DNA from: Galdieria sulphuraria
Lineage: Eukaryota > Rhodophyta > Bangiophyceae > Galdieriales > Galdieriaceae
Length of the DNA stretch: 64,000 nt
Direction: 5' to 3'
Assembly (NCBI RefSeq): GCF_000341285.1
Contig: NW_005178475.1
Span: 1-64,000, forward strand
Positions 29,028-31,708 of the stretch are shown here, piece by piece. A program made the position numbers and the translations under genes. Under the pieces are notes generated by a model that saw only the letters and a program-made list of their open reading frames with translations, was not told the origin of the DNA and ran no database searches. Position 1 is the stretch's first letter, and each line of letters begins with the position of its first letter.

Positions 29028-29066
29028 CAGAAAGAGAGAGTTTTCCATTGTCTTTTGATTTTCATA

Positions 29067-29750
29067 ATGACACATTCTCATGGCTCTTCTTGTGGTTCAT
29101 CACATGATCACTCACATGATGAACAACAAGAAACTTTAGGAGAACAATGGTCCTTATATCGTTATGTGGACTTTGATAAAGCTACTTGTTTGAATGAGTT
29201 GGAGACTGATTCCCTAAGGAATGTCTTGAGACCTTTCCACTTGAGGAACGATACAAGTCTTCCCGTTTTAACTTCTGCTGTCGATGAGCAACTACTGTTA
29301 TGGATACCTTTCACTCAAATGGTGAAACTGAAAGCTTTTTCTGTTATTGGAGGGGGTCAAGACACAAGTCCTTCACAAGTGAAACTATTTACCAACAATG
29401 AGCAATTATTGGACTTTTCTTTAGTTGAAGGAGCTAATCCAGTACAGACAATACAACTGGCACAATCTACTTCAGAATGGATAGAATATCCAACAAAGTA
29501 TACAAAGTTTCAAAATGTACAATCCGTAAGTTGAGACTCTTGGAGTGTACGTTTCTAATGATATTTCTTCTAGTTGATCATGTTCTTTCCAACCAACTTT
29601 GGAGCAGAACATACCGTTATCCAATATATAGGATTGAAGGGACAAGCAACCAACTTTAGAAGAGAAGCAGTCCAAACTGTTTACGAAGCTAGGCCGTTGA
29701 GTAAGGGATCCACTAGTGAAGAGTGGACCAACTTTCGAGCCATACAGTAA
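29067..29750 (+). CDS. PITH-domain protein (PITHD1-like)
   Basis: Two exons, 29067-29525 and 29575-29750, joined across a short intron at VQS/LIMFFPTNFG. The N-terminus is His- and Ser-rich (THSHGSSCGSSHDHSHDE), as in PITHD1. The PITH fold follows, with LNELETDSLRNVLRPF, DEQLLLWIPF and HTVIQYIGLKG. PITH domains bind the 26S proteasome in TXNL1; PITHD1 has been linked to proteasome and transcription roles. The open frame reaches slightly upstream of 29067 but without an ATG. Confidence 0.88.
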
Positions 29751-29756
29751 ACTAAA

Positions 29757-30815
29757 TTATTTCAACTTGGAAGAACGCGAAGCCTTTTCTTCTATTCCAG
29801 ATTGACTTTCACGGCGGTTCAACTCTTCATAAACAGCTTGTGGAGTTATCTTACAAAATGCCCAATATACGCAAAGATGATACAACAAGTCCGCACTCTC
29901 TTTTACAAGTTGATGAGGATCATTCTCCAATCCTGCAATGACAGTCTCAACGGCTTCTTCTCCAAGTTTCTTTGCAATAGACGCTCTTCCTTGAGAAAAT
30001 AAGCGACTTGTCCATGACAAAGATGGATCTGTCTGACTGCGTTGAACGACACGCTGATACAACTTTTCGATAAAATCTGTGGACAAGGCATTCTGTACTG
30101 CAACGCTCTCTTCTTCTTTCATCAAAGTAGAGTCAGGTTGCAACAACACAAAGGCATGACAAGCGATGGACAAATTCTGTCCTAAACTGTCCACTTGTTC
30201 ATGTGTTTTGGCTTTCAAGTTCACTTTATCTCTCGAAAGTTTCAATAACTCACAAATATTCTCACAAATGGCGTTGTTATGGGAAGCAAGTTTAGGTCTC
30301 TCCAATATGACAGTAATATCCAAGTTGGCAATATCATAGCCTTTTTGCTTCATCAATTTCCTCGCCTCTTCCATAAATACTTTAGAAGCAACCCCTTTCC
30401 AGCGAGGTTCTTTATCTGAAAACAACTGACCAATATCCGGTAAGCCTAAACCACCGAGTATGGCATCCACTACACTATGAAATATAACGTCTCCATCCGA
30501 GTGACCGACACTACCTCGATCATGATCCAAAGTTATGCCTCCCACAATAAGTGGTAAGCCTGGTTCTAAGCGATGCAAATCAAAGCCATGTCCTATTCTG
30601 ACTGAAGCAATAGGAGAGAAACAAAACCTGTGACTCGGCAACGATAGATTGTGTCTACACTTCCTTGGCAATCCAAATGAATAACGACGAGTGGGAAAGA
30701 AAACTCTATTGGTGCTTGAGTAGAAAATCTTGTTCGAGCAACGTGCAACTGAAAGAAAAGTACAAAACGACAGCAACCTGACTTGATTTCTCTTTTCCAT
30801 GAAATGATTATTCAT
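29757..30815 (-). CDS. IspF-HisE fusion: MECDP synthase plus phosphoribosyl-ATP pyrophosphatase
   Basis: A 352-residue uninterrupted frame. Residues 1-70 form a basic, Ser-rich plastid transit peptide. Residues 72-228 are IspF of the MEP isoprenoid pathway: RIGHGFDLHRLE with metal ligands Asp79 and His81, VGGI, GHSDGDVIFH (His113) and a C-terminal KAKTHEQ..SLGQ...IACHAFVLL. Residues 246-336 are HisE, the second step of histidine synthesis: a MazG-like core with KKLGEEAVETVIAG, ESADLLYHL and a C-terminal EELNRR. No stop or intron separates the domains. In plants HisE is instead fused to HisI. The two pathways share no intermediate, so this pairing may only secure joint plastid import. Divergent with peptide deformylase. 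Confidence 0.92.
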   Translation of the reverse strand: MNNHFMEKRNQVRLLSFCTFLSVARCSNKIFYSSTNRVFFPTRRYSFGLPRKCRHNLSLPSHRFCFSPIASVRIGHGFDLHRLEPGLPLIVGGITLDHDRGSVGHSDGDVIFHSVVDAILGGLGLPDIGQLFSDKEPRWKGVASKVFMEEARKLMKQKGYDIANLDITVILERPKLASHNNAICENICELLKLSRDKVNLKAKTHEQVDSLGQNLSIACHAFVLLQPDSTLMKEEESVAVQNALSTDFIEKLYQRVVQRSQTDPSLSWTSRLFSQGRASIAKKLGEEAVETVIAGLENDPHQLVKESADLLYHLCVYWAFCKITPQAVYEELNRRESQSGIEEKASRSSKLK

Positions 30816-30843: not shown

Positions 30844-31708
30844 ATGGTCTTCTTAAGTCAAGTGACAGGACCCAGTTGGTATGCTCGAAATCCAACTGGG
30901 TTGAATGGTTTACGTGCAAACAACTGTGTAATGAGTAATGGAAGCTTTTTAGGTAAACCGGTATTTTATGGACGCATGAAAAAAATGTGGGTACCTCCTG
31001 GTCTCAGACCAAAAAGACCTTCTTTTCAACAACTTGGTCGTGAAGTTTCTCTTTTAGAAGTTGACGGAGAAGATTATCTACCGTGTGACGTGAATATGTC
31101 GGGGCTATATGAATTGCCTGTAAGTGCAACTTTGTTGTCGTGAAATGGTTTTGTGAACTCTTATTTGTTGACAGAAAACTCTGGAAGTTGTAAAGTATCC
31201 AGACCCACGTCTGAGAAAGGAGAACGAAGAAGTAGACCCTTGTCACCCTAGTGTTGGTGAGATTGCACGAAAGATGTTTCAAGTTATGTATGCAGATAGA
31301 GGTGTTGGGTTGGCAGCTCCTCAAGTGGGCATCAACCAACGGCTGATGGTATATAATCCTACGGGCAAACCATCATCTTTTTTATCCCAAGTGGTGATGG
31401 TCAATCCCAAGATTGTGGACTGTTCGGATAAAAAAGTGGTGGATTTGGAAGGTTGTTTGTCGTTTCCAGGGATAGCGGGTAAAGTAAGTAGACACGAATG
31501 GGTTCGAGTAGAAGCTTTCAAACCAGGTGGTAAGAAAATCAAGCTCAAATTAGAAGGTTGGCAAGCTAGAATATTTCAACATGAATATGATCATCTGGAT
31601 GGAATCCTTTTTATTGACCGAATGGAACCTGAAGAACGAGCAAGAGCTCAATTCGTGTTGGATCAGCTAGTCAACAACTACAAGGGGAATGGAATACCGC
31701 AATTGTAA
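30844..31708 (+). CDS. PDF: Peptide deformylase, organellar
   Basis: Two exons, 30844-31119 and 31175-31708, about 269 residues. The enzyme removes the formyl group from new organelle-made proteins. The three metal and catalytic motifs are intact: GVGLAAPQVG, EGCLSFPG and QHEYDHLDG. The 90-residue N-terminus looks like a targeting peptide. EGCLSFPG and the lack of a PDF1A-type insert favour a PDF1B-like plastid or dual-targeted form. The open frame starts upstream without an ATG, so 30844 is taken. Confidence 0.93.

Follow-up and report, generated by a model that had tools for sequence, protein, structure and literature searches.

One Open Frame Encodes IspF and HisE

Why should an enzyme of isoprenoid biosynthesis be made as one polypeptide with an enzyme of histidine biosynthesis? 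The question is posed by a gene of the red alga Galdieria sulphuraria located at 29757..30815 on the minus strand of the window (the whole stretch of DNA analyzed here, 64,000 nucleotides of contig NW_005178475.1). According to the list of open frames, this ispF-hisE fusion gene comprises 352 codons, begins with an ATG and is free of internal stops, and the ATG is preceded, 15 codons upstream, by a stop in the same frame. The true start of the protein may be M1 or M6, because the database entry for the window's own protein (P0001) begins at M6 of the 352-residue frame.

Profile searches confirmed the claim of an earlier note that both enzymes are complete within one uninterrupted frame. Pfam places YgbB/IspF (PF02542) at residues 72-225 (30141..30602, minus strand), covering profile positions 1-154 of 155 with an E-value of 3.7e-56 and 190.2 bits against a curated cut-off of 26.7. 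PRA-PH/HisE is matched at residues 251-335 (29811-30065), covering profile positions 3-85 of 86 with an E-value of 2.9e-18 and 66.5 bits against a curated cut-off of 21.3; the HisE domain as a whole is taken as residues 250-352 (29760..30068, minus strand). The NCBIfam models agree, with 180.6 bits for TIGR00151 (ispF; cut-off 116.45) and 90.9 bits for TIGR03188 (HisE; cut-off 42.7). Between the two domains lies a linker of residues 227-249 (30069..30137, minus strand), and the junction that the earlier note had put near 30090 falls within it. Pfam detects no PRA-CH domain in the fusion protein, which therefore does not qualify as a HisIE or HISN2 enzyme.

The protein is 82% identical to GpartN1_g6595 of Galdieria partita. 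SWIB, PITH, peptide deformylase, and POP1 domains are encoded by the neighboring frames, which makes the locus a eukaryotic and nuclear one. The PITH-domain frame (29055-29534, plus strand) matches only positions 3-135 of a 176-position profile and the peptide deformylase frame (31274-31708, plus strand) only positions 34-155 of 156, and because of these partial matches both genes probably have further exons.

The Fusion Is Found across Red Algae

The earlier note knew of no IspF-HisE protein, but the idea that the fusion is peculiar to this sequence is not supported: among the best 120 of 1,466 whole-protein matches, 79 contain both domains (P0001-P0078 and P0090) and 41 contain IspF alone. 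A species label is legible in 11 of the 79 fusions, and all 11 belong to red algae, namely Galdieria partita, G. phlegrea (read from the label Galph1/Gphleg), Purpureofilum apyrenoidigerum, Cyanidiococcus yangmingshanensis, Rhodosorus marinus, Porphyridium purpureum, Gracilaria domingensis, Agarophyton chilense, Chondrus crispus, Pyropia vietnamensis, and P. yezoensis. Membership of the Rhodophyta was confirmed in the taxonomy for 7 of the 11 species; the other 4 we take to be red algae. No alga with a secondary red plastid occurs among the 11 labeled species, and a bifunctional PRA-PH/PRA-CH enzyme has been described in diatoms (PMC3901274).

Because other red algae carry the same fusion in the same order, a frameshift or assembly error is a very unlikely source of the joint. 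A sequencing error that removed a stop between the domains, one of two refutations envisaged in the earlier note, could not explain 79 fused proteins. The other, two separate mRNAs, is also unlikely, given that P0006 and P0010, which carry MMETSP labels, have both domains in one frame. The same is true of P0024, whose accession is styled like that of a transcript assembly. We assume that the labels of P0006 and P0010 refer to the MMETSP transcriptome collection and that the accession style of P0024 does denote a transcript assembly; the three proteins then count against separate mRNAs for the two domains in the species concerned.

A tree was built from all 79 fusions and 10 IspF-only rows of the same match list (7 from named plants or green algae and 3 unnamed). 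The fusions form one side of this tree with a support of 97, and within them Galdieria branches off before Cyanidiococcus and its kin, followed by Stylonematophyceae, Porphyridium, and then Pyropia and the florideophytes. This branching order resembles that expected from vertical descent from a red-algal ancestor, and the fusion seems to date back roughly to the origin of the red algae.

Single Matches for IspF and HisE in the Genome

Six-frame profile searches were made of the assembly of 12,045,016 bases in 102 contigs; they ignore introns, so that copies split into tiny exons could escape them. Within these 12.0 Mb, IspF and HisE each gave a single match, in both cases the fusion gene. A separate HisI gene, for which the earlier note had proposed looking, is present as the single HisI match of the assembly on contig C7, in a frame of 167 residues with PRA-CH as its sole domain and a basic N-terminal extension (2 acidic and 10 basic among 65 residues). 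Profile searches for IspD, IspG, HisD, and HisG also returned matches, which adds to the enzymes of both pathways in this genome. The IspG/GcpE profile matches two adjoining stretches at G000:C22:29264-30428 (L087 and L088) with one stop inside each (TGA and TAG), probably because introns are present.

Catalytic Residues Are Retained in Both Domains

Residue conservation was followed in all 79 fusions and in an alignment of 44, to which the window contributed its own frame and the remaining 78 fusions contributed 43. All 44 aligned fusions match both Pfam models in a common domain order. The Chondrus crispus model P0073, left out of the alignment, lacks the front of HisE (gap at W268), perhaps through a missed exon.

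IspF binds its metal through an Asp and two His residues (PMC5821942), which we mapped to D79, H81, and H113 of the window protein, where all three are present. The metal site of the PRA-PH domain of MtHISN2 consists of Glu214, Glu234, and Asp237 (PMC8102479), corresponding by our motif-based mapping to E287, E306, and D309. Across the 79 fusions H81, H113, E286, E287, E290, E306, and D309 are invariant, and D79 is kept in 78 (44 of 44 in the aligned set). The one departure at D79 is an Ala in P0037, a single case and possibly a sequence error. The position equivalent to Glu220 of plant HISN2 is occupied by I293 in the window protein; Glu220 is described as a ligand of MBS1, a site whose metal is absent from some subunits (PMC8102479). 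Judged by the residues retained, both enzymes of the fusion look active.

A Presequence-like N-Terminus

Residues 1-71 (30603..30815, minus strand), which are modeled with low pLDDT, contain 1% acidic residues, 17% Lys plus Arg, and an early Phe, in keeping with the presequence that the earlier note had read there. N-terminal extensions of at least 30 residues occur in 30 of the 44 aligned fusions; on average, acidic residues make up 3% of them and basic residues 14%, as against approximately 12-17% acidic residues in the rest of the proteins, a comparison made without a control set. An early Phe marks the transit peptides of red algae, and Phe occurs within the first 25 residues in 26 of these 30 extensions. 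The N-terminus thus fits a predicted plastid transit peptide on the basis of its composition. The extension is shorter than 30 residues in 33 of the 79 fusions (14 of the 44 aligned) and only 7 residues long in P0006 and P0007; such proteins may be truncated models, or the fusion may be made without a transit peptide in some species.

A Probable Pair of Tethered Modules

The linker varies from 23 to 89 residues in the 79 fusions, with a median of 54 (53 in the aligned 44), and is hardly conserved in the alignment; its shortest form, 23 residues, is that of this genome and two close relatives. A single-chain AlphaFold2 model (mean pLDDT 81.9, pTM 0.55) contains two confident domains, the N-terminus, linker, and tail being of low confidence. 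A fold search of the PDB with the whole model found Arabidopsis IspF 2pmp (TMt 0.94, single chain), and the best 50 rows listed contain IspF or IspDF only. Support for the HisE fold comes instead from solved HisE chains matched by sequence. The variable linker, itself modeled with low confidence, speaks for two tethered modules and against channeling or a fixed interface, and it weakens the suggestion in the earlier note that the geometry of the IspF trimer presents HisE precisely.

IspF is described as a trimer (PMC5821942) and PRA-PH as an obligate intertwined dimer, its monomeric state being termed "highly improbable" (PMC8102479). Given these two oligomeric states, we predict that the fusion protein probably assembles from at least six chains.

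Origin of the HisE Domain

Among the best 120 of 4,917 stand-alone HisE matches, the organism is given for three: Rhodospirillaceae, Rhizomicrobium, and Stellaceae. We take all three to be alphaproteobacteria. Bacterial hisE loci were examined in 80 of 586 relatives with flanks of up to 3 kb, and 69 of these 80 nonfused loci, which had been chosen by their similarity to the red-algal HisE, are labeled Alphaproteobacteria (identities 41-57%). A tblastn search with the IspF domain found no match in any of the 80 loci within the flanks examined, and for these loci a ready-made bacterial adjacency of ispF and hisE was accordingly rejected as the source of the fusion. A profile of red-algal HisE scored 97.7 bits against the stand-alone HisE 2a7w and 84.1 against another stand-alone chain, compared with 55.0 against Medicago HISN2; a further stand-alone chain, 1yxb, scored 54.9 and hence not above HISN2. 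By these comparisons the red HisE resembles alphaproteobacterial stand-alone HisE more closely than plant HISN2.

Two HisE trees, of 143 and 56 rows, were each built from 103 columns with short searches, using bacterial rows chosen for their likeness to red-algal HisE, and are poorly resolved. The larger one groups 21 of 23 red rows with a support of 86, three unnamed proteins adjoining them, and pairs the other two, both from Pyropia, with an alphaproteobacterial row (support 80). In this tree the branch to plant HISN2 is 3.55 long, so its distance says little. On the smaller tree the red label takes 3 changes, and the AU test does not reject a single clade of red rows (p-AU 0.493). Both trees place the red rows among alphaproteobacterial ones and do not separate descent from the mitochondrion from a later transfer.

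Since cyanobacteria are reported to have fused HisIE in 100% of cases (PMC1963479), HisE is unlikely to have come from the ancestor of the plastid. Plant HISN2 has been linked to the Deltaproteobacteria (PMC8102479). Taken together, these two observations make it likely that red algae acquired their HisE separately.

Why Are the Two Enzymes Joined?

In our judgment the fusion is probably a case of import hitchhiking, in which hisE was captured behind a plastid-targeted ispF and locked in there, the domains working independently and without channeling. Shared import had been among the explanations offered in the earlier note, and it is the one that we too prefer. In the order of events that we infer, a stand-alone hisE, proteobacterial and probably alphaproteobacterial in type, would have landed in frame behind ispF before the red-algal classes split. 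The recipient ispF would have been a nuclear gene with its plastid transit peptide already in place, and HisE would thereby have obtained import and expression together. The fusion would then have been locked in because the other source of HisE was gone and splitting the gene would demand a new transit peptide. Linked by a flexible tether, the two domains would each act on their own in the stroma, with neither a common substrate nor channeling between them. The long retention of the fusion could also mark a selected link rather than lock-in alone.

One such link would be regulatory: isoprenoid diphosphates, which the trimer cavity of IspF is reported to hold, or adenylate or PRATP sensed by HisE, might tune the other activity and so match the outputs of the two pathways. 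We think this unlikely, although named red algae are absent from the 41 IspF-only proteins among the best 120 of 1,466 matches, so that the fusion seems to be stably kept, and although isoprenoid density has been reported in some IspF trimer cavities (PMC5821942) and AMP binding to the PRA-PH domain of plant HISN2 (PMC8102479). Set against this are the poorly conserved linker of 23-89 residues and the low confidence with which linker and tail are modeled (pTM 0.55), so that a fixed interface is not seen, and the regulatory role of the cavity is itself called undetermined (PMC5821942). We also doubt that the fusion is there as an assembly device, the threefold symmetry of IspF and the twofold symmetry of HisE combining into a hexamer, a larger cage, or a lattice that stabilizes or clusters the enzymes in the stroma. 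The IspDF assembly is reportedly hexameric. IspF itself is a trimer and IspDF a working bifunctional precedent (PMC5821942), and the obligate intertwined dimer of PRA-PH (PMC8102479) would supply the second axis; however, the IspD/E/F complex once reported has since been rejected, PMC5821942 itself finding no complex, and an assembly may result from a fusion without being its reason. Bolder, and rather improbable in our view, is a combination of the two in which the fusion is a defining trait of red algae and forms a stromal hexamer or cage of C3 and C2 parts where isoprenoid end products set the activity of HisE through the IspF cavity. If it were true, one protein would couple pigment and terpenoid supply to the use of histidine and adenylate.

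That one domain has degenerated, leaving the fusion in effect monofunctional, is very improbable. The Ala of P0037 at a metal-ligand position would be expected of such decay, but all 79 fusions retain every other residue checked, and this genome holds no second match to IspF or HisE while matching HisI, IspD, IspG, HisD, and HisG. There is hardly any chance that annotation, assembly, or contamination created the fusion: the gene does have a single exon, while other genes of this genome give fragmented matches, but 79 database proteins are fused, two of them with transcriptome labels, and its neighbors are eukaryotic, with SWIB, PITH, and POP1 domains.

Relation to Known Fusions

Plant HISN2 and bacterial HisIE resemble the red-algal protein in being bifunctional, with PRA-PH as the C-terminal domain; the plant protein is targeted to plastids (PMC8102479). 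Their partner is HisI, the enzyme of the next step, whereas the red-algal partner is IspF of another pathway and HisI is separate in this genome. The IspDF proteins of Campylobacter, Helicobacter, and rhizobia likewise join IspF to an enzyme of a nonconsecutive step (PMC5821942), but their IspF is C-terminal (209-373 of 381 in 8xhu), whereas in the red-algal fusion it is N-terminal and its partner comes from a different pathway. Fungal HIS4 (HisI-HisE-HisD) is another multifunctional protein of eukaryotes that includes HisE (PMC1963479), although every part of it serves histidine synthesis; here HisE stands apart from HisI and HisD. HisE tolerates fusion, as HisF-HisE, HIT-HisE, and HisE-HisE proteins exist in which its partner is not IspF. 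Among our matches, the partner of HisE in P0124, P0125, P0128, P0133, and P0138 is a domain of either the HIT or the PF00977 (HisA/HisF) family, and HisE seems to fuse readily with other genes. The 218-219-residue proteins P0121, P0122, and P0123 consist of tandem HisE-like halves, the second with GSDG for the conserved ESAD, and this half may be an inactive duplicate.

Fused, bifunctional hisIE was said in 2007 to have been found in all eukaryotes (PMC1963479), and a PRA-PH/PRA-CH protein is listed for an oomycete (PMC2705460). The G. sulphuraria genome breaks that rule, and red algae generally probably do so too. We found no description of an IspF-HisE fusion in the literature searched, a scope to which preprints and most subscription papers do not belong. 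In the searchable text of that literature, hisE and ispF co-occur as whole words only in a study of a beetle symbiont. PMC4010437 and PMC10624901 were discarded as mentions of hisE because the "hise" in their matched text is the start of HiSeq.

Implications

From Galdieria to Chondrus, red algae have a seemingly undescribed bifunctional enzyme that links two pathways without a common substrate, and they seem to have rebuilt the HisE step with a different HisE. Being a rare change, the fusion can serve as a marker of red algae and perhaps also of plastids derived from them. It also offers a clean case in which to ask whether fusions of unrelated enzymes last through import lock-in, assembly, or regulation. 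If both enzymes prove to be single copy in other red algae as well, a knockout or inhibitor directed against one pathway would hit both.
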